NCBI RefSeq assembly: GCF_040182365.1
Contig: NZ_CP144460.1
Coordinates: 2,542,001 to 2,606,000 of the forward strand
DNA: 64,000 bases
Direction: 5' to 3'
Source of the DNA: Xanthomonas sp. 10-10
GTDB lineage: Bacteria; Pseudomonadota; Gammaproteobacteria; Xanthomonadales; Xanthomonadaceae
Under the pieces are notes generated by a model. That model was given only the letters and a program-made list of their open reading frames with translations, was not told the origin of the DNA and did no database searches. Shown one piece after another: positions 4,341-38,111 of this stretch. Each line of letters starts with the position of its first letter. The stretch's first letter is position 1. Both the position numbers and the translations under genes were made by a program.

Positions 4341-5546
4341 TTACAACGCTTCGATGATGCCTGCCGCGCCCATGCCGGTGCCGATGCACATGGTGACCAT
4401 GCCGTACTTCTGCTGACGGCGACGCAGGCCGTGCACCAGGGTGGCGGCACGGATCGCGCCGGTCGCGCCCAGCGGATGGCCCAGTGCAATCGCGCCGCCC
4501 AGCGGATTGACCTTGGACGGGTCCAGTTCGCTGTCGCGGATCACCGCCAAGGCCTGCGCGGCGAAGGCTTCGTTGAGCTCGATCCAGTCGAGTTGGTCCT
4601 TGGTCAGGCCGGCCTGCTTGAGCGCCTTGGGAATTGCGGCGATCGGGCCGATACCCATCACTTCCGGGCGCACGCCGGCGACCGAGAAGCTGACAAAACG
4701 CGCCAGCGGGGTCAAGCCGTAATCCTTGATCGCCTGCTCGGAGGCCAGCAGTACCGCTCCGGCGCCATCGCTCATCTGCGAGGAATTGCCTGCGGTGACG
4801 CTGCCGCCGAACTGCCCGTTACGGAACACCGGGCGCAGCTTGGCCAGGCCTTCCAGGGAACTGTCCGGACGCGGGCCTTCATCGGTGTCGACCAGCCGCT
4901 TGCGCAGTGCAATGACATTGCCGGCGAGGTCGGGCTGGTGCGAATGGATCTCGTACGGGGTGATCTCGTCGCGGAACTCGCCCGCCGCGATCGCCGCGAT
5001 GGCCTTCTGGTGCGAGGCCAGCGCAAACGCATCCTGATCCTCGCGCGAGACCTTCCACTCCTCGGCCACTTTCTCGGCGGTGATGCCCATGCCATAGGCA
5101 ATGGCCACATGGTCGTCGGCGAATACGCTCGGCGACATGGCGACCTTGTTGCCCATCATCGGCACCATCGACATCGACTCGGTACCGCCGGCCAGCATGA
5201 GGTCGGCATTGCCCAGGCGGATCTGGTCGGCGGCCATCGCCACGGCCTGGATGCCGGACGAACAGAAGCGATTGATGGTCTGGCCGGCGACGGTGTTGGG
5301 CAGGCCGGCGAGCAGCACGCCGATGCGCGCCACGTTCATGCCTTGCTCGCCCTCCGGCATCGCGCAGCCGATGATGGCGTCGTCGATGCGCGACAGATCG
5401 ATGCCCGGCGCCTGCGCGACCACCGCGCGCAGCACGTGCGCCAGCATGTCGTCGGGACGGGTGTTGCGGAACACGCCCTTCGGCGCCTTGCCGACCGGGG
5501 TACGGGTGGCGGCAACGATGTAGGCTTCTTGAATCTGCTTGCTCAT
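4341..5546 (-). CDS. fadA: Acetyl-CoA C-acyltransferase (3-ketoacyl-CoA thiolase)
   Basis: This thiolase carries out the last step of fatty-acid beta-oxidation, splitting 3-ketoacyl-CoA with CoA to acetyl-CoA and a shortened acyl-CoA. The 401-residue product has the nucleophilic Cys95 in NRFCSSG, the GHPLGATG motif with the catalytic His, and the second catalytic Cys in CIGTGMG near the C-terminus. The start has a good ribosome binding site (GGAGATAG) on the minus strand. It follows the multienzyme gene at 5703-8075 in the same direction with a 156-base gap holding an inverted repeat, and the two together form the beta-oxidation complex. A biosynthetic acetoacetyl-CoA thiolase is less likely given the partner. 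Confidence 0.93.
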   Translation of the reverse strand: MSKQIQEAYIVAATRTPVGKAPKGVFRNTRPDDMLAHVLRAVVAQAPGIDLSRIDDAIIGCAMPEGEQGMNVARIGVLLAGLPNTVAGQTINRFCSSGIQAVAMAADQIRLGNADLMLAGGTESMSMVPMMGNKVAMSPSVFADDHVAIAYGMGITAEKVAEEWKVSREDQDAFALASHQKAIAAIAAGEFRDEITPYEIHSHQPDLAGNVIALRKRLVDTDEGPRPDSSLEGLAKLRPVFRNGQFGGSVTAGNSSQMSDGAGAVLLASEQAIKDYGLTPLARFVSFSVAGVRPEVMGIGPIAAIPKALKQAGLTKDQLDWIELNEAFAAQALAVIRDSELDPSKVNPLGGAIALGHPLGATGAIRAATLVHGLRRRQQKYGMVTMCIGTGMGAAGIIEAL

Positions 5547-27954: not shown

Positions 27955-28527
27955 ATGCGTGTCTTGCTGGTCAACGATACCGAAAAGCCCATTGGCGAAC
28001 TGCGCCAGGCATTGACGCGTGCCGGTTACACGGTGCTCGACGATGTGGCATCGGTGAGTGCGTTGCTGCATGCGGTGCAGAGCCAGCAGCCGGACGTGGT
28101 GGTGATCGACGTGGATTCGCCTTCGCGCGATACGCTGGAGCAGTTATCGATGCTGCATACCCATGCACCGCGCCCGGTGGTGATGTTTTCCGGCGATGGC
28201 GACGATGCCTTGATCCATGCTGCGGTGGGGGCTGGCGTTACCGCGTACGTGGTGGACGGCCTGGCACCGGCGCGGCTGGCGCCGATCGTGCAGGTGGCGC
28301 TGGCCCGGTTTGCGCACGAGAGCAGCATGCGCAAGCGCCTGGACGATGTGCAGCAGGCATTGCAGGACCGCAAGCAGATCGACCGCGCCAAGGGTCTGCT
28401 GATGCAAAAACGTGGCCTCAGCGAGGCTGAGGCGTACGCCGCGCTGCGTCAGCAGGCGATGAAGCAGGGTGTCAAGCTGGCCGAAGTGGCGCGACGCATC
28501 GTGGCCATGGCCGAGTTGTTGGGATGA
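27955..28527 (+). CDS. nasT: NasT-type ANTAR transcription antiterminator
   Basis: NasT-type proteins bind leader RNA of nitrate-assimilation genes and let RNA polymerase pass a terminator; NasS keeps them inactive without nitrate. The 190-residue product has a receiver-like domain (residues 1 to about 120, with VVVIDVDSPSRD at the phospho-acceptor position) and a C-terminal ANTAR domain (RKQIDRAKGLLMQKRGLSEAEAYAALRQQ, about 140-185). An in-frame ATG at 27889 would leave only 17 bases to divergent cysG, so the start at the receiver domain is preferred. nasS follows four bases later. The matching RNA target lies 1.8 kb downstream before narK. Confidence 0.93.
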   Translation: MRVLLVNDTEKPIGELRQALTRAGYTVLDDVASVSALLHAVQSQQPDVVVIDVDSPSRDTLEQLSMLHTHAPRPVVMFSGDGDDALIHAAVGAGVTAYVVDGLAPARLAPIVQVALARFAHESSMRKRLDDVQQALQDRKQIDRAKGLLMQKRGLSEAEAYAALRQQAMKQGVKLAEVARRIVAMAELLG

Positions 28528-28531
28528 ACAG

Positions 28532-29602
28532 ATGAGCCAAGCCGAACTTCCCGTATTGCGCGTGGCCTACATGCCGCTGATCGATTGCGCGCCGCTGATT
28601 GCCGCACAGCGGCTGGGCCTGGATCGTAAGCACGGCCTGCAACTGGACCTGCAACGGCAGGCCTCCTGGGCCGGCGTGCGTGACCGTCTGCTGGCGGGCG
28701 AGGTGGAGGCGGCGCATGCGCTCGCGAGCCTGGTATATGCCATCGATCTGGGCATTGCCGGGCCGCAATGCCCGATGGCGTTGCTGATGACGCTCAATCA
28801 CAACGGCCAGGCGATCACGCTGGCGCCTGCGCTTGCGCAGGCCCTGGAAGAGGGGCAGAGCTTGCCGCAGGCGCTGGCCAGCCTGGGCCGCCGCGCCGTG
28901 TTTGCGCAGACCTTCCCGACCGGCACGCATGCGCTGTGGCTCTATTACTGGCTGTCCGCGCGCGGCGTGGATCCGATGCGCGACGTGGAGGTGCTCAGCA
29001 TCCCGCCGCCGCAGATGCCGGACGCCCTGGCCAGCGGCCTGGTCGACGGCTATTGCTCCGGCGAGCCGTGGGCTGCGGTTGCGCAGGCGCAGGGCAGCGG
29101 TCGCCGGGTAATCCGCAGTGGCGAGCTGTGGGCTGGCCATCCGGAAAAGGTGCTGGCCTGCCGGCGCGAATTCGCCGCGCTGCAACCCGAGTTGACCGAA
29201 CGCCTGACCGCCTGCGTACTGGATGCCTGCCGCTGGCTGGATGCGGACCCGGCCAATCGCGCGCAATGTGCGCAGTGGCTGGCCGAGCCACAGCATATCG
29301 GGGTATCGGCCGCGTATCTGGCCGCTTGCCTGGATGCCGATGTCGAAGTCGAGGCACATGCGAAGGATGTGACAGCGCTGGCCTTCCATGGCGATGGCGC
29401 GGTCAACATGCCGTGGCTGTCGGACGGCGAGTGGTTCCTGACCCAGTTCCAGCGCTGGGGTTGGCATGACATCCAGGAAGACGACATCGCGCGGCTGCGC
29501 GACATCCATCGACTGGACAACTATCGGCGCGCTGCCGCGCGCGTGGGCCTGGTTTCCCCCGAGGGCGACCACCGCAGCAATCGGTTGTTCGATACGCCCT
29601 GA
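28532..29602 (+). CDS. nasS: NasS-type nitrate sensor (NrtA/CmpA-like, cytoplasmic)
   Basis: NasS is the nitrate- or nitrite-binding partner that sequesters NasT until ligand is present. The 356-residue product looks like an NrtA/CmpA substrate-binding protein (RVAYMPLIDCAPLIAAQRLGL, SGEPWAAVAQAQ, CRREFAALQPELTERL) but has no signal peptide, so it should stay in the cytoplasm. That feature separates NasS sensors from ABC-transporter binding proteins. No permease or ATPase gene is near, which again favours a sensor. It is separated from nasT by four bases and clearly in one operon. After it come about 850 bases of repeats and regulatory sequence before narK. Confidence 0.9.
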   Translation: MSQAELPVLRVAYMPLIDCAPLIAAQRLGLDRKHGLQLDLQRQASWAGVRDRLLAGEVEAAHALASLVYAIDLGIAGPQCPMALLMTLNHNGQAITLAPALAQALEEGQSLPQALASLGRRAVFAQTFPTGTHALWLYYWLSARGVDPMRDVEVLSIPPPQMPDALASGLVDGYCSGEPWAAVAQAQGSGRRVIRSGELWAGHPEKVLACRREFAALQPELTERLTACVLDACRWLDADPANRAQCAQWLAEPQHIGVSAAYLAACLDADVEVEAHAKDVTALAFHGDGAVNMPWLSDGEWFLTQFQRWGWHDIQEDDIARLRDIHRLDNYRRAAARVGLVSPEGDHRSNRLFDTP

Positions 29603-29737: not shown

Positions 29738-29842
29738 GTCCTTGCCCGCCCACCATCGCAGGACACGCCGCAAGTACGTCCCTGTAGGCGCTTACGCGGC
29801 ATCCATGCCGCGTAAGGCCCGCGACGGTGGGCGGGCAAGGAC
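29738..29842. repeat. REP-like long inverted repeat 1
   Basis: GTCCTTGCCCGCCCACC (29738-29754) pairs with GGTGGGCGGGCAAGGAC (29826-29842); the 22-base arms differ at one site. Inside lies a second perfect hairpin (CTTACGCGGCATCC with ATGCCGCGTAAG). Such nested repeats are common between Xanthomonas genes. Confidence 0.8.
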
Positions 29843-29898
29843 GTGTCGAAATGCTCGGTGTGCAGAGTTTTCAATAAAACAGCCTGCAAACTTCCTGG

Positions 29899-30002
29899 TG
29901 CGGTGTCCTCGCCGCTTGCGGGACCGTGTGGCGGCTTGGATGCCGCCACCGAGCCTCCACGGACGGATTCACGGCGTGTCCCGCAAGCGGCGAGGGCACC
30001 GC
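29899..30002. repeat. REP-like long inverted repeat 2
   Basis: TGTCCTCGCCGCTTGCGGGA (from 29904) pairs with TCCCGCAAGCGGCGAGGGCA (from 29979), with one mismatch. A second hairpin, GTGGCGGC with GCCGCCAC, lies inside. The sequence differs from repeat 1 but has the same layout. Confidence 0.8.
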
Positions 30003-30140: not shown

Positions 30141-30157
30141 TGCACGCTGTTGGTGCA
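30141..30157. promoter_or_regulatory. NtrC-like binding site
   Basis: TGCACGCTGTTGGTGCA matches the NtrC consensus TGCACC-N5-GGTGCA at nearly all positions. It lies about 147 bases upstream of the -24 element, a normal distance for a sigma-54 enhancer site. Confidence 0.7.
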
Positions 30158-30285: not shown

Positions 30286-30302
30286 TTGGCACGCTGATTG
30301 CG
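30286..30302 (+). promoter_or_regulatory. Sigma-54 (RpoN) promoter of the nitrate assimilation operon
   Basis: TTGGCACGCTGATTGCG fits the -24/-12 consensus TGGCACG-N4-TTGC without mismatch; GG (30288-30289) and GC (30300-30301) are ten bases apart. Transcription would start near 30313, two bases before the first leader hairpin. Confidence 0.88.
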
Positions 30303-30314
30303 TAGTGATTCCGT

Positions 30315-30400
30315 GCGGGCACAACGGCGTACCTGCAACAACACGAACACGATGCAGCGGATCAACGGCGATCCGCACGCATCCAGGACAACGGCGTCCT
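30315..30400 (+). promoter_or_regulatory. ANTAR-type antiterminator leader with three AACGGC hexaloop hairpins
   Basis: Three hairpins share the same six-base loop AACGGC, with the A at position 1 and G at position 4 that ANTAR proteins need. Hairpin 1 is GCGGGCAC/GTACCTGC (30315-30336, one mismatch and one G-U). Hairpin 2 is GCGGATC/GATCCGC (30357-30376, perfect). Hairpin 3 is AGGAC/GTCCT (30385-30400, perfect). Hairpins 2 and 3 are eight bases apart and make the canonical pair; hairpin 1 is extra. The loop and 3' arm of hairpin 3 are the 5' arm of the terminator, so only one of them can form. NasT from 27955-28527 is the obvious ligand. Confidence 0.87.
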
Positions 30401-30432
30401 TCCGGTTTACCGGAGGGGCGCCGTTTTTTTTT
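30391..30432 (+). terminator. Attenuator terminator before narK
   Basis: A 15-base-pair stem (30391-30405 with 30410-30424, two G-U pairs, TTTA loop) runs directly into nine T residues. Its 5' arm overlaps antiterminator hairpin 3. It would stop transcription about 25 bases before the narK start unless antiterminated. Confidence 0.92.
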
Positions 30433-30457: not shown

Positions 30458-31666
30458 ATGCAGCGCTCGTTCTGGCGATCCGGGCACACGCCCACCTTGT
30501 TCGCTTCCTTCCTGTATTTCGATCTGAGCTTCATGGTGTGGTATCTGCTCGGGCCGTTGCAGGTACCGATTGCGCAAGCGCTGGGATTGGACACGCAGCA
30601 GCGCGCCTTGATGGTGGCCGTGCCGATCCTGTGCGGGGCGGTGTTGCGTCTGGTGCTGGGCATGTTTGCCGATCGCATCGGCGCCAAGCGCGCCGGCGTG
30701 GTCGCGCAGCTCGCAGTGATCGCTGCGCTGTTCGGTGCCTGGCAACTGGGCGTGCACAGCATGGGGCAGGCGCTGCTGCTGGGCGTGCTGCTCGGTATCG
30801 CCGGCGCTTCATTTGCGGTGGCATTGCCGCTGGCGTCGCGCTGGTATCCACCCGAGCATCAGGGCACCGCGATGGGCATCGCCGGTGCAGGCAATTCCGG
30901 CACGGTGCTGGCGGCGTTGTTCGCTCCGATGCTGGCCGCCGCTTTCGGCTATCAAAACGTGTTCGGGCTGGCGTGCATTCCGTTGGTGCTGACGCTGATC
31001 GTGTTTGCGTCGATCGCCAAGGAGGCACCGACACCGGTCGCACGCAAGCAGTGGTCCGACTACGGCCGCGTGCTGGTGGGTAACCGCGACGCGTGGCGCT
31101 TCATGTTCTTTTACGCGATTACCTTCGGCGGCTTTTCTGGCTTTGCCAGCGCGTTGCCGGGTTACTTCCACGACCAGTTCGATTTCGACGCGCGTACCGC
31201 GGGCTGGGCCACGGCGGCCTGCGTGCTGGCTGGCTCGGTGATGCGCCCGTTGGGTGGCGTGATTGCCGACCGTGTAGGCGGCACGCGTGCCTTGCTGGCA
31301 GTGTATCTGCTGGTGGCCACGCTGGTAGGCATTGCCGGGTTCGGTGCCGGCGGCGCCACCATCACGCTGGCGTTGTTCGTGTTGACGTTGTTGTGCCTGG
31401 GCGCCGGCAATGGTGCGGTGTTCCAGCTGGTGCCGCAGCGCTTCGGCCAGGATATCGGGGTGATGACCGGCTTGATCGGCATGGCCGGCGGCATCGGTGG
31501 CTTCGCGCTTGCGGCCGGGTTGGGCGTACTCAAGCAGCACACCGGCAGCTATGCGTTGGGCATGTGGTTGTTCGCTGCATTCGCGCTTGGCGGCTGGGGC
31601 CTGCTGGCGGGCGTCAAGACCCAGTGGCGCAGCGAATGGTCCGCCGCCGGCGCGGCGCGCGTCTGA
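30458..31666 (+). CDS. narK: Nitrate/nitrite MFS transporter (NarK/NasA family)
   Basis: This is a major-facilitator porter for nitrate, the uptake step of the assimilation pathway. The 402-residue product has about twelve hydrophobic segments and NNP-family marks: Gly-rich signature segments GIAGAGNSGTVLAALFAPML in the first half and GLIGMAGGIGGFALAAGLGV in the second, plus FADRIGAKRAG between helices 2 and 3. The open frame reaches back into the leader, but ATG 30458 gives the family N-terminus. It is the first gene after the sigma-54 promoter and attenuator, and nirB follows closely, so the whole operon narK-nirBD-nasA-cobA is under that control. Confidence 0.93.
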   Translation: MQRSFWRSGHTPTLFASFLYFDLSFMVWYLLGPLQVPIAQALGLDTQQRALMVAVPILCGAVLRLVLGMFADRIGAKRAGVVAQLAVIAALFGAWQLGVHSMGQALLLGVLLGIAGASFAVALPLASRWYPPEHQGTAMGIAGAGNSGTVLAALFAPMLAAAFGYQNVFGLACIPLVLTLIVFASIAKEAPTPVARKQWSDYGRVLVGNRDAWRFMFFYAITFGGFSGFASALPGYFHDQFDFDARTAGWATAACVLAGSVMRPLGGVIADRVGGTRALLAVYLLVATLVGIAGFGAGGATITLALFVLTLLCLGAGNGAVFQLVPQRFGQDIGVMTGLIGMAGGIGGFALAAGLGVLKQHTGSYALGMWLFAAFALGGWGLLAGVKTQWRSEWSAAGAARV

Positions 31667-31688
31667 CATGTCGACAGGAATCCAGGCA

Positions 31689-34142
31689 ATGAAGCAACCC
31701 AGACTCGTCGTCATTGGCAATGGCATGGCCGGCATCCGCACCGTGGAGGAACTGCTCAAGCTGATGCCGGGCATGTACCACATCACCGTGTTCGGCGCCG
31801 AGCCGCATCCCAACTACAACCGCATCCTGCTGTCGCCGGTGCTGGCCGGCGAGCAGGAGTTCGACGACATCGTGCTCAACCCGTTGCAGTGGTACCGCGA
31901 CAACGGCATCCATCTGCACTTGAACAAGGAAGTCACGCGCATCGACCGCGTGCGTCGCCGCGTGATTGCCGCCGATGGTACCGAAGCCGAGTACGACCGG
32001 CTGTTGATCGCCACCGGCTCGGTACCGTTCGTGTTGCCAATTCCCGGCAATGAATTGAAAGGCGTGATCGGGTACCGCGATATCCAGGATACCCGCACCA
32101 TGATCGATACCGCGCGCACCAGGCAGCACGCGGTGGTGATCGGTGGCGGCCTGCTTGGCCTGGAAGCAGCCAACGGCCTGAAGGTACGCGGCATGGACGT
32201 GACCGTGGTGCATCTGGCCGGGTGGTTGCTGGAGCGCCAGCTCGACCCGGTGGCCGGCAATCTGCTGCAGCAGGCACTGCGCGCGCGCGGGCTGGAGTTC
32301 AGGCTGAGTACCGCGACCAGTGCCTTGCTGGGCAATGCGCAGGGCGAGGTGATTGGCGTGAAGTTCGCCGATGGCAGCGAGATCCCGGCCGATCTGGTGG
32401 TGATGGCAGCGGGCATCCGCCCGAACACCCGCCTGGCCGAAGACGCCGGCATCCATTGCTCGCGCGGCATCGTGGTCAACGACAGTCTGCAGAGCTTCGA
32501 TCCGCGCGTGTACGCAGTGGGCGAGTGCGCAAACCACCGTGGCATTGCGTACGGCCTGGTGGCACCGTTGTTCGAGCAGGCCAAGGTGTGCGCGAATCAC
32601 CTGGCGCAGTTCGGCATCGGCATCTACCGCGGTTCGGTGGCCTCGACCAAGCTCAAGGTCACCGGGATCGACCTGTTTTCGGCCGGCGATTTCATGGGCG
32701 GCGATGGCTGCGAGGAGATCGTGCTGTCCGATCCGGCCGGCGGGGTCTACAAGAAGCTGGTGATCCGCGACGATGTGCTGGTCGGCGCCTGCCTGTACGG
32801 CGACACCAGCGATGGCGGCTGGTACTTCAAGCTGCTCAAGGACGGCACGCCGATCCAGGCGCAGCGCGACCAGTTGATCTTCGGCGAGAGCGCACTCGGC
32901 GATGCCGGTACCGGCGGGCAGGACCGCGCCAGTGCGATGGCCGACAGCGACGAGGTCTGCGGCTGCAACGGCGTGTGCAAGGGCACGATTGTCAAAGCCA
33001 TCAGCGAGCAGGGGCTGTTCACCGTCGATGAGGTGAAGAAGCACACCAAGGCGGCCAGTTCCTGCGGCTCGTGCACGGGGCTGGTCGAGCAGATCCTGAT
33101 GAACTGCCTGGGCTCCAACTTCCAGGAAACGCCGAAAACCAAGGCCGTCTGCGCCTGCACCGATCTGAGCCATGGCGAGGTGCGACGCGCCATTCGCGAG
33201 CACAGGTTGCTGACCCATGCACAGGCCTACGCCTTCATGGAATGGCGCACGCCCAATGGTTGCGCGACCTGCCGGCCGGCGATCAACTACTACATGTTGT
33301 CGAGCTGGCCGCACGAGGCCATCGACGATCCGCAGTCGCGCTTCATCAACGAGCGTGCGCACGCCAACATCCAGAAGGACGGCACCTTCTCGGTGATTCC
33401 GCAGATGAAGGGCGGGGTGACCAATGCCGGCGAGCTGCGCCGCATTGCCGATGTCGCCGACAAGTACGCCGTGCCGATGGTCAAGGTGACCGGTGGCCAG
33501 CGCATCGATCTGCTCGGGGTCCGGAAGGAAGACCTGGTGGATGTGTGGCGCGATCTGGGCATGCCCTCCGGCCACGCCTACGGCAAGTCGATCCGCACGG
33601 TGAAGACCTGCGTGGGCAGCGAGTTCTGCCGTTTCGGCACCCAGAACAGCACGCAGATGGGCATCGACCTGGAAACCATGCTGGCCAATATGTGGAGCCC
33701 GCACAAGGTGAAGCTGGCGGTATCCGGCTGCCCGCGCAACTGCGCCGAATCCGGCATCAAGGATGTCGGCATCATCGCTGTGGACTCGGGGTGGGAGCTG
33801 CATGTCGGTGGCAATGGCGGCATCAAGACCGAGGTGGCCCGCTTCCTGGTCAAGGTGAGCACCGCCGAGGAAGTGCGCGAATACACCGGTGCGTTCCTGC
33901 AGCTGTATCGCGAGCAGGCGTATTACCTGGATCGCACCGTGCACTACATCGCACGGGTGGGGCTGGATTACATCCGCGCACAGGTGGTGGATGACGCGGC
34001 CAACCGACGTGCGTTGTACGAGCGCCTGCTGTATTCGCTGGAAGGCCTGGTCGACCCGTGGAAGGCACGCATCGCCGGCGAGCGGCGTCAGGAATACCAA
34101 CCGCTGCGTATCGCGGCGCCTGCGGCAACGGTGGAGGAATGA
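31689..34142 (+). CDS. nirB: Assimilatory nitrite reductase large subunit NirB
   Basis: NirB reduces nitrite to ammonium with NAD(P)H. The 817-residue product has an N-terminal FAD domain (VVIGNGMAGIRTVEELL), an NAD-binding loop (HAVVIGGGLLGLEAANGL near residue 145) and BFD-like [2Fe-2S] regions (CGCNGVCKGTIV, SCGSCTGLVEQIL and a further Cys pair, about 415-530). The siroheme/[4Fe-4S] domain carries TCVGSEFCRFG and SGCPRNCAESG. ATG 31689 has AGGA upstream; an in-frame ATG at 31668 is an alternative. nirD starts within four bases of its stop. Siroheme would be supplied by CobA and the CysG-like protein in the same cluster. Confidence 0.96.
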   Translation: MKQPRLVVIGNGMAGIRTVEELLKLMPGMYHITVFGAEPHPNYNRILLSPVLAGEQEFDDIVLNPLQWYRDNGIHLHLNKEVTRIDRVRRRVIAADGTEAEYDRLLIATGSVPFVLPIPGNELKGVIGYRDIQDTRTMIDTARTRQHAVVIGGGLLGLEAANGLKVRGMDVTVVHLAGWLLERQLDPVAGNLLQQALRARGLEFRLSTATSALLGNAQGEVIGVKFADGSEIPADLVVMAAGIRPNTRLAEDAGIHCSRGIVVNDSLQSFDPRVYAVGECANHRGIAYGLVAPLFEQAKVCANHLAQFGIGIYRGSVASTKLKVTGIDLFSAGDFMGGDGCEEIVLSDPAGGVYKKLVIRDDVLVGACLYGDTSDGGWYFKLLKDGTPIQAQRDQLIFGESALGDAGTGGQDRASAMADSDEVCGCNGVCKGTIVKAISEQGLFTVDEVKKHTKAASSCGSCTGLVEQILMNCLGSNFQETPKTKAVCACTDLSHGEVRRAIREHRLLTHAQAYAFMEWRTPNGCATCRPAINYYMLSSWPHEAIDDPQSRFINERAHANIQKDGTFSVIPQMKGGVTNAGELRRIADVADKYAVPMVKVTGGQRIDLLGVRKEDLVDVWRDLGMPSGHAYGKSIRTVKTCVGSEFCRFGTQNSTQMGIDLETMLANMWSPHKVKLAVSGCPRNCAESGIKDVGIIAVDSGWELHVGGNGGIKTEVARFLVKVSTAEEVREYTGAFLQLYREQAYYLDRTVHYIARVGLDYIRAQVVDDAANRRALYERLLYSLEGLVDPWKARIAGERRQEYQPLRIAAPAATVEE

Positions 34143-34144
34143 GC

Positions 34145-34504
34145 ATGCCCAATCACGCATGGGTGCGCGTGTGCGCGCTGCAGGACCTGCCGGTGCTGGG
34201 CGCACGCGTGCTGAAGGTCGATGGACTGCCGGCGATCGCCATCTTTCGCACTGCCAGCGATCAGGTGTTTGCACTACGCGACCGTTGCCCGCACAAGGGT
34301 GGGCCGTTGTCCCAGGGCATCGTGGCTGGCGACACCGTGACCTGCCCCCTGCATGGCTGGGCGATCGGCTTGCAGAGCGGGCAGGCCTGCGCGCCCGACG
34401 TGGGCTGCGCGCCGCGCTATCCGATCAAGGTGGAGGCCGAGGCGGTGTGGATCGTCCTGCAGCCGGTAGAGCAGGACGATGCCGTGACCGAGCCGGCAAC
34501 ATGA
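34145..34504 (+). CDS. nirD: Nitrite reductase small subunit NirD (Rieske type)
   Basis: NirD is the small partner of NirB. The 119-residue product keeps all four Rieske ligands: Cys48 and His50 in DRCPHKGG and Cys67 and His70 in TCPLHGW. Some NirD proteins have lost these residues, so a real [2Fe-2S] cluster is likely here. GGAGG lies eight bases before ATG 34145, which is better placed than for the ATG six bases earlier that overlaps the nirB stop. The stop codon overlaps the start of nasA (ATGA), showing tight translational coupling. Confidence 0.94.
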   Translation: MPNHAWVRVCALQDLPVLGARVLKVDGLPAIAIFRTASDQVFALRDRCPHKGGPLSQGIVAGDTVTCPLHGWAIGLQSGQACAPDVGCAPRYPIKVEAEAVWIVLQPVEQDDAVTEPAT

Positions 34505-37422
34505 GCGAAGGCCTGCAGCCACCGTCGCCAGCCAACGCGGCGCAGCCACCGACGGCAGGGCCGATGCATCGCATCACGCGCTCGACCTGCTGTTATTGCG
34601 GTGTGGGTTGCGGCGTGCTGATTCACAGCACGCACGATGTCGATGGCGAACGCATCGTCGGCATCGAAGGCGACCCGCTGCATCCTGCAAATTACGGCCG
34701 TCTGTGCAGCAAGGGTCTGGCGTTGCCGCAGACCGTCGCAAGCACGCAGGGGCGCGTTCTTGCGCCGGAGTTGCGCCGGCATCGGCAGGCGTCGCGTGCG
34801 CCGGTGAGCTGGGATCAGGCGCTGCAGCATGTCAGCAGCAAGCTGGCCGCCATCATCCAGGAACATGGCCCCGATGCGGTGGCGTTCTATCTGTCCGGGC
34901 AGCTGCTCACCGAGGACTATTACGTCTTCAACAAGCTGGCCAAGGGGCTGATCGGTACCAACAACATCGACACCAATTCGCGCCTGTGCATGTCCAGCGC
35001 GGTCACCGGTTACAAGCTGGCGCTCGGCGCCGATGGCCCGCCGACCTGCTATGAAGATCTGGAGCTGGCGCACACCGTGCTGTTTGCCGGCAGCAACATG
35101 GCATACGCGCATCCGGTGCTGTTTCGCCGGCTGGAAGACGCGCGTGCACGCAACCCGGACATTCGCTGGATCGTGATTGACCCGCGGCGCACCGATACCG
35201 CGGCCATGGCCGACCTGCACCTTGCAATCGAACCCGGCACCGACGTCGCCCTGTTCAACGGCATGCTGCATCACCTGATCTGGGAGGGTCTGGTGGATGC
35301 GCGCTTCGTTGCGGCAAACACGCAGGAGTTCGATGCCCTCAAGCGAATGCTGCGCGAGTACACCCCGCGCATGAGCGCCGAGATCTGCGGAATCTCGCAC
35401 GAGGACCTGGTGCAGGCGGCCGAGTGGTTCGGGCGCAGCCCGGCAGCGCTGTCGCTGTATTGCATGGGCCTGAATCAGTCGGCGCACGGCACCGACAAGA
35501 ATCTTGCGTTGATCAATCTGCATCTGGCCACCGGACAGATCGGCAAGCCCGGCGCAGGGCCGTTTTCGCTGACCGGCCAACCCAATGCGATGGGCGGGAG
35601 GGAGGTGGGCGGCATGGCGACGATGCTGGCGGCGCACCGCGAGATCGGCAATGCGGACCATCGTGCCGAGCTGGAACGGCTGTGGGGCGTGCCGGCGGGG
35701 CGCATCTCGCCCAACCCCGGCGCGCCGGCGGTGGAGTTGTTCGAGCGGCTGCGCGCCGGCAGCCTGAAGGCGGTGTGGATCGTCTGCACCAACCCCGTGC
35801 ACTCGATGCCGGACGTGGCGGGTATTCGCGCCGCACTGGAACAGGCCGAACTGGTGATCGTGCAGGATGCCTTCTCCGGCACCGACACCGTGCCCTATGC
35901 CGACGTCTTGCTGCCGGCGGCCAGCTGGGGCGAGAAGGACGGCACGGTGACCAATTCCGAACGCCGCGTCACCCGTGTGCGCAAGGCGGTGGAAGCGCCC
36001 GGGCAGGCGCGTGCCGATTGGTGGATTGCCAATGAAGTCGCCCGTCGACTGGAGGCGCGGCTGGCACCGGCTACCGGCGCCGGCCTGTTCGCGTTCGACA
36101 GCACAGCACAGGTCTTCGACGAGCATCGTGGGTTGACGATAGGGCGCGATCTGGACATCGGAGGGCTGGATTACGCGGTGTTGGACAATGGCCCGCAGCA
36201 ATGGCCGTTCCCTGCAGGCGCCACGCAAGGGCAGGCGCGTCGCTACACCGATGGGGTGTTCGCCACGGCCGATGGCCGTGCGCGGTTTCATGCAACGCCG
36301 TATCGCAAAGTGGCCGAGGCCACCTCGGCGCGCTTTCCGATGCGCCTGCTCACCGGTCGCCTGCGCGACCAGTGGCATGGCATGTCGCGCACCGGGCGCG
36401 TGGCTGCGGCCTATTCGCACAGCCCGGAACCCTCGTTGCGCATGCACCCGGACGATGCCGCGCGCCGCGGGCTGGTGGCCGGCGAGTTGGTGCAGGTCGC
36501 CAGCAAGCGCGGTGGACTGGTGCTGCCGTTGGAACTGTCGGAGGAACTGCGCTCGGGCACCGTTTTTGCCGCGATGCACTGGAGCGGACAGACGCTGTCC
36601 AGCGGCGGCATCAACGAAGTCAGCACGCCGGCGGTGGATGCGCGCTCGCACCAGCCCGAGCTCAAGCACGCGGCCGTGCGTGTGGACAAGGCGGTGTTTG
36701 GCTGGCACCTGCTGGCGGCACGGCGCGGCGATGCGCTGGCCTTGCAGCAGTCACTGCAACCGCTGCTGCGCGAGTGCGGCTATGCGAGCCTGCGCCTGCA
36801 TGCCGAGCCATTGACCGATAACGCCGGGCAGTGGGCGGTACTGCACGCCGCCTGCGCGCGCGCGCCCGATGCCGCGTGGATCGATCGCCTGGTTGCCGCG
36901 CTGCAATTGCCCGCTGGTGCCGACGTATTGGAGTACCGCGACCTGCGCCGTGGATTGATGCGGCGCGTCGGTTGGCGCATGCAGGACGGCCACAGCCATA
37001 TCGATGGCCTGCTCCTGACCGCCGCACAACCCAGCGATGCCAATCAATCGCTGCTGACGGTGGCATTGGCCGGCAAGCCCTGGCCGGGGGCGCGGCTGGC
37101 GGTGTTCGCCCAGACGCGCGCCGCGCCCAGCGACCCGATCGTGTGCACCTGCATGCAGGTCTCGGCCGCCGCGATCCACGCAGCCATCGACGACGGTGCC
37201 GACGTCGCACAGCTCAAGCAACGCCTGGGCTGCGGCACCGTCTGCGGCTCCTGCGTTCCGCAACTGACCCGGCTGTGTCGCCAACCGCGGCTGGCCTGGT
37301 GCACCCCACCCATCCCTACATTGCGAGATCTCTCATGTCAGTCGGACCGTCCTGCGCGCGTGATGTGGTGTTGTTGTCTGCCGGCCCTGGCGATCTGGAA
37401 CTGCTCACCATCAAGGCGGTGA
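34501..37422 (+). CDS. nasA: Assimilatory nitrate reductase catalytic subunit NasA
   Basis: NasA is the cytoplasmic bis-MGD molybdoenzyme that reduces nitrate to nitrite. The 973-residue product has an N-terminal [4Fe-4S] motif at Cys30, Cys33, Cys37 and Cys69 (CCYCGVGC, GRLCSKG), the molybdopterin oxidoreductase body with NTNSRLCMSSAV-type and GLNQSAHGT motifs, and a dinucleotide-binding C-terminal part (MRLLTGRLRDQWHGMSRTG). A BFD-like [2Fe-2S] segment follows near residue 880 (VCTCMQVS, GCGTVCGSCVPQL). After that the frame runs on for about 45 low-conservation residues and overlaps cobA by 88 bases. Whether those last residues are real, or a frameshift moved the stop, is unclear. It starts within the nirD stop. 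Confidence 0.94.
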   Translation: MSEGLQPPSPANAAQPPTAGPMHRITRSTCCYCGVGCGVLIHSTHDVDGERIVGIEGDPLHPANYGRLCSKGLALPQTVASTQGRVLAPELRRHRQASRAPVSWDQALQHVSSKLAAIIQEHGPDAVAFYLSGQLLTEDYYVFNKLAKGLIGTNNIDTNSRLCMSSAVTGYKLALGADGPPTCYEDLELAHTVLFAGSNMAYAHPVLFRRLEDARARNPDIRWIVIDPRRTDTAAMADLHLAIEPGTDVALFNGMLHHLIWEGLVDARFVAANTQEFDALKRMLREYTPRMSAEICGISHEDLVQAAEWFGRSPAALSLYCMGLNQSAHGTDKNLALINLHLATGQIGKPGAGPFSLTGQPNAMGGREVGGMATMLAAHREIGNADHRAELERLWGVPAGRISPNPGAPAVELFERLRAGSLKAVWIVCTNPVHSMPDVAGIRAALEQAELVIVQDAFSGTDTVPYADVLLPAASWGEKDGTVTNSERRVTRVRKAVEAPGQARADWWIANEVARRLEARLAPATGAGLFAFDSTAQVFDEHRGLTIGRDLDIGGLDYAVLDNGPQQWPFPAGATQGQARRYTDGVFATADGRARFHATPYRKVAEATSARFPMRLLTGRLRDQWHGMSRTGRVAAAYSHSPEPSLRMHPDDAARRGLVAGELVQVASKRGGLVLPLELSEELRSGTVFAAMHWSGQTLSSGGINEVSTPAVDARSHQPELKHAAVRVDKAVFGWHLLAARRGDALALQQSLQPLLRECGYASLRLHAEPLTDNAGQWAVLHAACARAPDAAWIDRLVAALQLPAGADVLEYRDLRRGLMRRVGWRMQDGHSHIDGLLLTAAQPSDANQSLLTVALAGKPWPGARLAVFAQTRAAPSDPIVCTCMQVSAAAIHAAIDDGADVAQLKQRLGCGTVCGSCVPQLTRLCRQPRLAWCTPPIPTLRDLSCQSDRPARVMWCCCLPALAIWNCSPSRR

Positions 37423-38111
37423 AGGCGCTATCAGTGGCGCAGGTGCTGCTGCTGGACGACCTGGCCAACCCCGACATCGTCGAGCTGGCACCGCAGGCGC
37501 GCGTGATCCGCGTCGGCAAACGCGGTGGTTGTCGTTCCACGCCGCAGGAGTTCATCTGCCGGTTGATGCGGCGTTACGCGTTGCAGGGGTTGCGCGTGGT
37601 GCGGGTCAAGGGCGGCGATGCGTTGTTGTTCGGCCGCGCGGGCGAAGAGATCGACTTCCTGCGCCGCGCCGGCGTGGGCGTGCAGGTGATCAATGGCGTG
37701 AGCGCTGCGTTCGCTGCCGCAGCATCGCTGGAAGTGTCACTGACCCACCGCAGCCACTGCCACGGCATCACCTTCGTCACCGCGCACACGCACGACCATG
37801 GTGAGCCGAACTGGGGGGCGCTGGCGGCCAGCGGTACAACGCTGGGCATCTACATGGGGTTGCGCCGCGCAGACGCGTTGGCCACGGCGCTGCTACTGCA
37901 TCTTCCGGCCAGCACGCCGGCCGCCATCGTGCAGGCGGCCACGCGACCGGAGCAGCAGCGCAGGCTGACCACGCTGGGCGAGCTGGGAACTACTGCGGCA
38001 GCGCTGCTACCAGGTCTGCCCACCTTGCTGTTGGTGGGCGATGCATTGTCCGAAGCATCGCTGGCCTGCGACGACCGCTTCGGTGCGGTGCAGCAGCAGG
38101 CGGCAGGGTAA
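37335..38111 (+). CDS. cobA: Uroporphyrinogen-III C-methyltransferase (SUMT)
   Basis: SUMT makes precorrin-2 from uroporphyrinogen III with two SAM molecules, the first step toward siroheme. The 258-residue product has the SAM-binding start LLSAGPGDLELLTIKAVKAL, VVRVKGGDALLFGRAGEE near residue 90, and the NGVSAAFAAAASLEVSLTHR region. Compared with typical CobA, the Pro of GPGDP and the Phe of GGDPFVFGR are replaced, mild departures that probably do not abolish activity. ATG 37335 has no ideal ribosome binding site and lies inside the 3' end of the nasA frame. As the last gene of the nitrate operon it supplies the siroheme needed by NirB. Confidence 0.9.
   Translation: MSVGPSCARDVVLLSAGPGDLELLTIKAVKALSVAQVLLLDDLANPDIVELAPQARVIRVGKRGGCRSTPQEFICRLMRRYALQGLRVVRVKGGDALLFGRAGEEIDFLRRAGVGVQVINGVSAAFAAAASLEVSLTHRSHCHGITFVTAHTHDHGEPNWGALAASGTTLGIYMGLRRADALATALLLHLPASTPAAIVQAATRPEQQRRLTTLGELGTTAAALLPGLPTLLLVGDALSEASLACDDRFGAVQQQAAG

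Follow-up and report, generated by a model that had tools for sequence, protein, structure and literature searches.

The predicted leader RNA of a narK-type nitrate/nitrite transporter gene in the window (the whole 64 000-nt stretch of Xanthomonas DNA analysed here) is a real, conserved new variant of the ANTAR antitermination leader. Folds give three hairpins with C-G-closed AACGGC hexaloops inside the window at 30314-30400 on the + strand, each loop with the A1 and G4 that ANTAR proteins recognise (available text of PMC3369931 and PMC7496416). We hold with about even confidence that the first two hairpins, HP1 and HP2, are interchangeable recruitment sites for the ANTAR protein NasT, which would be passed to the third, HP3, before the overlapping terminator folds.

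The leader and the genes around it

Features of the locus are listed by window coordinates; hairpins and terminator were called from folds.

27955-28527, + strand: nasT, 190 aa, receiver-like and ANTAR RNA-binding domains (Pfam PF00072, PF03861)
28532-29602, + strand: nasS, NMT1-like binding protein (Pfam PF13379, E 1.7e-78)
30141-30157, + strand: NtrC-like site, pattern match to TGCAC-N7-GTGCA
30286-30301, + strand: sigma54-type promoter, TTGGCACGCTGATTGC, pattern TTGGCAC-N5-ATTGC, transcript start predicted at about 30313
30314-30337, + strand: HP1, predicted 5' end of the RNA, hexaloop AACGGC at 30323-30328; proposed NasT recruitment site
30357-30376 (core), + strand: HP2, extended to 30351-30383 by GATGC/GCATC, hexaloop AACGGC at 30364-30369; proposed second recruitment site
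30385-30400, + strand: HP3, hexaloop AACGGC at 30390-30395; proposed antiterminator, folding at RNA ends 30400-30412
30390-30432, + strand: intrinsic terminator, 16-bp stem 30390-30405/30410-30425, 4-nt loop, nine T
30458-31666, + strand: narK-type nitrate/nitrite MFS transporter (Pfam MFS_1; best NCBIfam model TIGR00886, 269.6 bits, below its cut-off of 311.7)
31497-34142, + strand: nirB reading frame, nitrite reductase large subunit, start likely at about 31668-31689 (TIGR02374, 914.6 bits, above cut-off)
33889-37422, + strand: molybdopterin oxidoreductase reading frame (Pfam PF00384, PF01568, PF04879)
34058-34504, + strand: nirD reading frame, nitrite reductase small subunit (TIGR02378, above cut-off)
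36831-38111, + strand: uroporphyrinogen-III methyltransferase reading frame, siroheme (TIGR01469, above cut-off)

The initial annotation had described three AACGGC stem-loops with A1 and G4, the third sharing bases with the 5' arm of a terminator, and the sequence and folds agree on both points: the terminator 5' arm is made of the HP3 loop and the HP3 3' arm, and HP3 and the terminator are mutually exclusive in the computed folds. Its terminator of 15 bp and nine T is right for the T run (30424-30432, with two T inside the stem), but the folded stem has 16 bp. Its gap of 20 bases between HP1 and HP2 holds for the core stems but shrinks to 13-14 unpaired nt with the extended HP2, which leaves 1 nt on its other side; the HP2-HP3 linker is accordingly 8 nt by core stems or 1 nt. 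The HP1 stem forms 8 of 9 pairs in the window genome, with one C.A mismatch. The HP1-HP2 linker is A/C-rich, and at 30338-30350 it holds an unpaired CAA that is near-invariant in the alignment described below (50, 49 and 52 of 53 leaders) and a mostly kept G (44/53) four columns past the last A; this conservation could mark a recognition element.

When growing RNA ends were folded, HP1 formed first, HP1 with HP2 next, and all three at ends 30400-30412; at 30417 another fold was best, and the terminator appeared at ends of at least 30422, its 3' arm emerging some 10-25 nt after HP3. The full leader was computed at -62.4 kcal/mol in its terminator fold, compared with -49.0 kcal/mol when HP3 is forced. 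Given this advantage of 13 kcal/mol for the terminator over HP3, NasT would need to intervene co-transcriptionally, before the 3' arm emerges.

Chance origin of the triple was ruled out with 5000 dinucleotide shuffles of 30312-30402, whose minimum-energy folds contained no A1/G4 hexaloop in 4864 cases, one in 135, two in 1 and three in none. A covariance model of the leader, run against the whole 5.17-Mb genome, gave a single match (E 1.2e-24); the next (E 0.08) leaves no convincing second copy in that genome. A search for plasmid relatives of the leader gave no match.

The calls at 30286-30301 and 30141-30157 use the consensus sequences that we take to be those of sigma54 and NtrC, respectively. 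Of 56 narK loci, that of the window among them, 50 have a looser version of the latter pattern, GCAC-N7-GTGC, upstream of the gene. From the sigma54 site narK, nirBD and the nitrate reductase gene are probably transcribed as one operon. The molybdopterin oxidoreductase at 33889-37422 is likely to be this assimilatory nitrate reductase; NCBIfam models of nitrate reductase and of formate dehydrogenase score there, all of them below their cut-offs.

A whole-genome ANTAR search returned NasT as its one match, and NasS is likely, by analogy with Paracoccus NasS-NasT (available text of PMC3795266), to be the nitrate/nitrite sensor that holds NasT. The initial annotation had both genes immediately upstream; they do lie upstream of the target operon, but some 0.7 kb separates the nasS end (29602) from the promoter. 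That gap contains three pairs of inverted arms: 25 nt at 29738-29762/29818-29842 (92% complementary), 54 nt at 29758-29811/29931-29984 (76%) and 25 nt at 29900-29924/29978-30002 (96%). The repeats at 29738-30002 are possibly a mobile or REP-like element, and their core word has no clear repeat elsewhere within the window.

Conservation within and outside the family

Of the genomes searched, 25 of 35 in the genus and 45 of 297 in the family carry narK; the two sets overlap. The 57 narK loci (L002-L058) were reduced to 56 by leaving out L003, from the window's species, and leaders were extracted with a rule that combines the sigma54 motif with GACA[AT]NGNNGTC, so that A1/G4 of HP3 is built in and HP1 and HP2 lie outside the rule. 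Two loci (L051, L053) fail it; the 54 of 56 that pass gave 53 distinct leaders after the duplicate row L054 was dropped, and G310, with a partial narK, was not included.

In the alignment of these Xanthomonadaceae narK leaders, a check that the initial annotation had proposed, A1/G4 is kept in all three loops of 50 of 53 leaders and the stems covary. Loss of the first hairpin or of its loop identity in close relatives was the outcome that the initial annotation had set against its own claim; HP1 and its loop identity are kept in 51 of 53. Loops were lost for HP1 in L031 and L041 and for HP2 in L056, and for both in none. Taken singly, the HP1 loop has A1 in 52/53 and G4 in 51/53, the HP2 loop has A1/G4 in 52/53, and the HP3 loop is AACGGC in 53/53, its A1 and G4 being preset by the extraction rule. 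The closing C-G pair is present in 53, 52 and 53 of the 53 leaders for HP1, HP2 and HP3, respectively. Counts are taken from the alignment because an automatic fold rule overlooks loops closed by an additional pair; over the 56 own-family loci that rule called three loops in 32, two in 7 and one in 4, with 13 failing the promoter/terminator pattern.

The HP1 loop itself drifts around its two fixed letters. Its variants are AACGGC (39 leaders), AACGGG (6), AACGAG (2), AAAGCC (2), AACGAC (1), AATGCC (1) and loops other than A1/G4 (2), with entropies of 0.27, 0.45, 0.69 and 0.74 at positions 2, 3, 5 and 6 against 0.14 for A1 and 0.23 for G4. Twelve leaders thus have an HP1 loop that is unlike that of HP3 and still A1/G4. 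This variation bears on the notion that, in the antiterminated state, AACGGCG of HP1 base-pairs with the freed terminator 3' arm (CGCCGTT). The minimum-energy fold with HP3 forced does pair the HP1 loop region with that arm, but HP1 would have to open, and the 12/53 differing loops (AACGGG, AACGAG, AAAGCC and others) would mostly pair more weakly; we put the idea aside as a general mechanism and give it only a very slight chance.

Compensatory changes, with both sides of a pair altered, occur in 6 of 9 HP1 pairs, 6 of 7 HP2 core pairs and 13 of 21 pairs overall. Double-changed cells number 113; shuffling gave a mean of 35.8, and no slid control exceeded 17. Pairing holds in 90.7% of cells, compared with 83.5% after shuffling and no more than 50.0% after sliding. 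MAFFT aligned the leaders by sequence, but the structure is that of the window, which biases the comparison with slid controls in its favour.

In the Pseudomonadaceae the corresponding leaders are matches to P11, which we take to be NalA. P11 matches occur in 35 of 59 Pseudomonadaceae genomes, and 30 of the 37 listed places were examined: 29 have A1/G4 in HP1 (accepting an HP1 with at least two pairs next to the loop), 18 in HP2 and 18 in both. Under a stricter fold rule, 14 of the 30 have three loops, 10 have two and 6 have one. HP1, treated by the initial annotation as simply extra, is therefore the more constant of the two upstream hairpins there. The initial annotation also knew of no three-hairpin leader elsewhere; the triple is carried by the same 18/30 P11 leaders and by six loci of the Neisseriales.

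These six came from a Xanthomonadaceae-trained model run over 68 chosen loci (the named NasT loci number 71). The best six of its 58 matches (E 9e-14 to 7e-10) are Neisseriales loci with three A1/G4 hexaloops, from Aquitalea (three), Jeongeupia, a Neisseriaceae isolate and Paludibacterium; Crenobacter and two Chitinimonas leaders have two such hexaloops. A class-wide survey found the HP3-terminator pattern at 27 places in 25 of 369 genomes, and since the reversed control pattern gave 15 places, some of the 27 must be chance; L081, L083 and L086 look so when read individually. Among the 25 class-survey places outside the Xanthomonadaceae, three A1/G4 hairpins are present in L072, L074, L075, L077, L089 (with a mismatch in the second stem) and L095. 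Outside the family the fold rule failed to yield a usable leader in 13 of the 28 class-survey loci and in 16 of the 29 named ones. The Neisseriales, Pseudomonadaceae and class-survey triples rule out an oddity confined to Xanthomonas.

Two genomes (G474, G574) have two leaders each (L085 and L095; L075 and L094), 2-4 kb apart, one read with two hexaloops and the other with three. In the Thiohalocapsa leaders L182 (about 4800-5015) and L184 (about 4780-5000) the promoter motif lies 164 and 173 nt from HP3, and six hairpins fold, three of them with A1/G4 hexaloops.

Single losses, regulator type and proposed NasT recruitment

NasT matches were found in 61 of 66 family genomes tested and in 55 of the 56 of these that carry narK. 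The sole narK genome without NasT is G262 (locus L051), a single draft assembly of 90 contigs and 99% completeness in which the ANTAR search gave no match. Its leader retains the promoter motif and an HP1 loop that reads GACGGC, with A1 changed; neither HP2 nor HP3 nor the terminator is left. Outside the genomes with narK the system decays as well: among the 10 genus members without narK the NasT match is absent in 4 and broken or partial in 6 (remnants in G001, G007, G011, G014, G029 and G033), and the nitrate system was likely lost repeatedly within the genus. A search of these 10 for leader remnants, run without a positive control, found none.

Loss of HP1 alone accompanies a regulator that is still present. 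L031 and L041, which come from different genera and have mutually similar leaders, retain the HP1 stem (10 pairs called) with a loop that is not A1/G4 and an intact NasT. L053, also with NasT, retains HP2 (loop AACGCA) and HP3; by the rules used it lacks both the sigma54 motif and HP1. HP1 is therefore dispensable in these three. The retained stems, and the start of HP1 at the predicted first RNA bases, would suit an HP1 that is mainly a 5'-end stem, protecting the RNA or spacing the promoter from HP2, with its loop a relic. Against this, A1/G4 and the closing C-G pair persist in HP1 at the frequencies given above despite the drift of the other loop letters, and A1 is lost in the ANTAR-less genome; we consider such a role improbable.

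Spacing and the same losses bear on a canonical dual-hairpin arrangement, in which one NasT dimer would sit on HP2 and HP3 and HP1 would be a weak auxiliary site or affinity booster. Loop spacings in 50 leaders are 36-42 nt for HP1-HP2 and a tight 21-26 nt for HP2-HP3, the latter like the 20-29 nt between the upstream loop and HP3 of several two-hairpin leaders, and L031, L041 and L053 manage without an A1/G4 loop in HP1 or without HP1. The HP2-HP3 pair is, however, not an invariant unit: L056 has lost the HP2 loop and kept HP1, the P11 leaders keep HP1 far more often than HP2, and in other two-hairpin leaders (L187, L180, L181, L169) the upstream loop lies 37-109 nt from HP3. We judge this arrangement unlikely.

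Two-hairpin leaders are common in other NasT genomes (e.g. G394, G580, G445, G645, G338, G483, G614), so a third site is not generally needed under NasT. In a 54-row NasT tree the hairpin number changes 14 times, at least 7 of these forced by starred branches, so the third hairpin has no single origin there; clustering of the number is only weak, with 32 of 500 shuffles giving as few changes. The tree is a quick one, with long-branch warnings, hairpin labels assigned by hand and 23 of its 50 inner branches left open. Twelve near-identical Xanthomonas rows were dropped from it, and L222 gave no usable protein.

The type of regulator was examined in 29 genome tests for ANTAR proteins, covering genomes without a close NasT or without upstream A1/G4 loops, plus comparison genomes. 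NIT and ANTAR domains lie on one protein (NasR type) in G724, G534, G439, G365 and G658; in G331 they lie in different frames, and there is a second ANTAR match. The regulator lies no more than about 0.5 kb from the leader in G534, G439 and G331, distant in G658 and on another contig in G724. None of the six NasR-type genomes, a small sample, has a triple leader: two hexaloops occur in L063, L065 (by eye) and L066, and the terminator loop only in L064, L076 and L119. L119 is also the only one of the 30 Pseudomonadaceae leaders with A1/G4 in neither HP1 nor HP2, and its genome has a NIT-ANTAR protein and no NasT match. The NasT genomes examined mostly have two or three hexaloops; at L070, a second place in G338, the rule found none. 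That triple leaders are tied to NasT and not to NasR is suggestive only, given six NasR-type genomes.

The same pattern would suit a NasT oligomer of two or three dimers that grips all three loops at once and so steepens the nitrate response: freed Paracoccus NasT is oligomeric, with about six monomers by its authors' estimate (available text of PMC3795266), and NasR is a dimer (available text of PMC7496416). The NasR sample is small, however, and such a complex would be disrupted where HP1 or HP2 is lost on its own; simultaneous binding seems to us quite unlikely.

The losses among the 53 leaders, of HP1 or HP2 singly and never together, along with the decay of the G262 leader where NasT is gone, favour interchangeable recruitment over one fixed pair. 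The initial annotation had suggested that a second NasT dimer could bind HP1, or that 1+2 and 2+3 could be alternative pairs; HP1 and HP2 as interchangeable partners of HP3 fit the pattern of losses better than a fixed pair of HP1 with HP2. Under the recruitment reading, nitrogen limitation would cause the leader RNA to be made via the sigma54 and NtrC-like sites, and nitrate would free NasT from NasS. The freed NasT would load on HP1 or HP2 while the RNA is being synthesised, the two recruitment hairpins lengthening the time for its capture, and would be handed to HP3, which as antiterminator would block terminator formation and allow read-through. We infer NasT binding, nitrate release, antitermination and the division of labour among the hairpins; recruitment and hand-off, likewise inferred, extend a published EutV proposal, and the hand-off is a proposal even for EutV.

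The distance between HP1 and HP3 (57-68 nt, loop to loop) far exceeds the 5-12 nt between the two hairpins of eut leaders (available text of PMC3369931), and a 20-nt extension abolishes EutV activity (PMC8934654); direct transfer from HP1 to HP3 would therefore need HP2 as a folded bridge. More generally, such antitermination might be a relay with a tunable number of catching sites, in which one or two upstream hexaloops, interchangeable in position, load NasT and hand it on to the terminator-overlapping loop. The two-site form would then evolve repeatedly where the regulator is the two-component NasT, but not where it is NasR, a one-piece sensor. We regard this general relay as possible but somewhat doubtful.

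Comparison with known leader RNAs

The regulatory setting resembles the Paracoccus nas system, which shares the NasS-NasT pair upstream of nas genes and the leader hairpins (available text of PMC5424462 and PMC3795266). NasT is released there from NasS by nitrate or nitrite and binds the nasA leader (PMC3795266, same text). The Paracoccus nasA leader has two hairpins, HI and HII, in the available text of PMC5424462, against three in the window. Nas leaders in the available literature are dual-hairpin or, in PMC3795266, 'a series of regulatory hairpins' whose number is not given. The dual-hairpin ANTAR targets (eut, amiE, nasF; available text of PMC3369931) share the A1/G4 hexaloops, a last hairpin overlapping the terminator and an ANTAR regulator in the genome; they have two hairpins, and the conserved window leader has three. 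An actinobacterial survey defined dual stem-loops with linkers of 2-25 nt (available text of PMC8164766), and three hairpins near the PPE1 start of Mycobacterium tuberculosis are a possible PdtaR target (available text of PMC8131098). No triple nas leader is described in the available text of the literature surveyed (including PMC3369936 and PMC6759348), and the primary NalA papers may describe the three loops of NalA, on which NasT is reported to act in the available text of a review (PMC12830290).

The EutV-RNA structure paper (PMC8934654) leaves as an open question why there is an upstream hairpin if one dimer binds one hexaloop. The present leaders form a natural series, with upstream sites lost singly in relatives and both gone in one regulator-less and one NasR-type genome, that could test recruitment and hand-off against simultaneous gripping. 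The leader could thereby reveal how ANTAR proteins capture RNA in time.

The initial annotation had advised a search with Rfam models, and the leader falls below the cut-offs of both related families; in 20 related loci there were no gathering matches to any Rfam family. P11 (RF00625; window leader 42.4 bits, cut-off 70) shares with it, in the same order, a sigma54-type promoter, an early hexaloop hairpin, a middle hairpin and a terminator with an overlapping hexaloop, in P11 GGAC(AAAGGC)GTCC. P11 differs in having mostly other loops, shorter spacing (HP1 about -41 and HP2 about -18 from HP3) and an HP2 loop that is often lost, and HP3 is absent from the structure drawn in the Rfam model, which consists of hairpins one and two and the terminator. 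The narK RNA (RF03032; window leader 28.2 bits, cut-off 43.2) shares a promoter-like 5' part, an AACGGC hairpin and a second A1/G4 hexaloop sequence in its consensus as we interpret it; it has one drawn hairpin, and two hexaloops by that interpretation. P11 and narK RNA are separate Rfam entries ('Pseudomonas sRNA P11' and 'narK RNA') without a clan and look like the same NasT/NasR leader type. The present analysis would unite them with the unlisted leader of Xanthomonadaceae and Neisseriales as one NasT/NasR leader group. Since the triple occurs also in Neisseriales and P11 leaders, the window leader is a variant of a known system.
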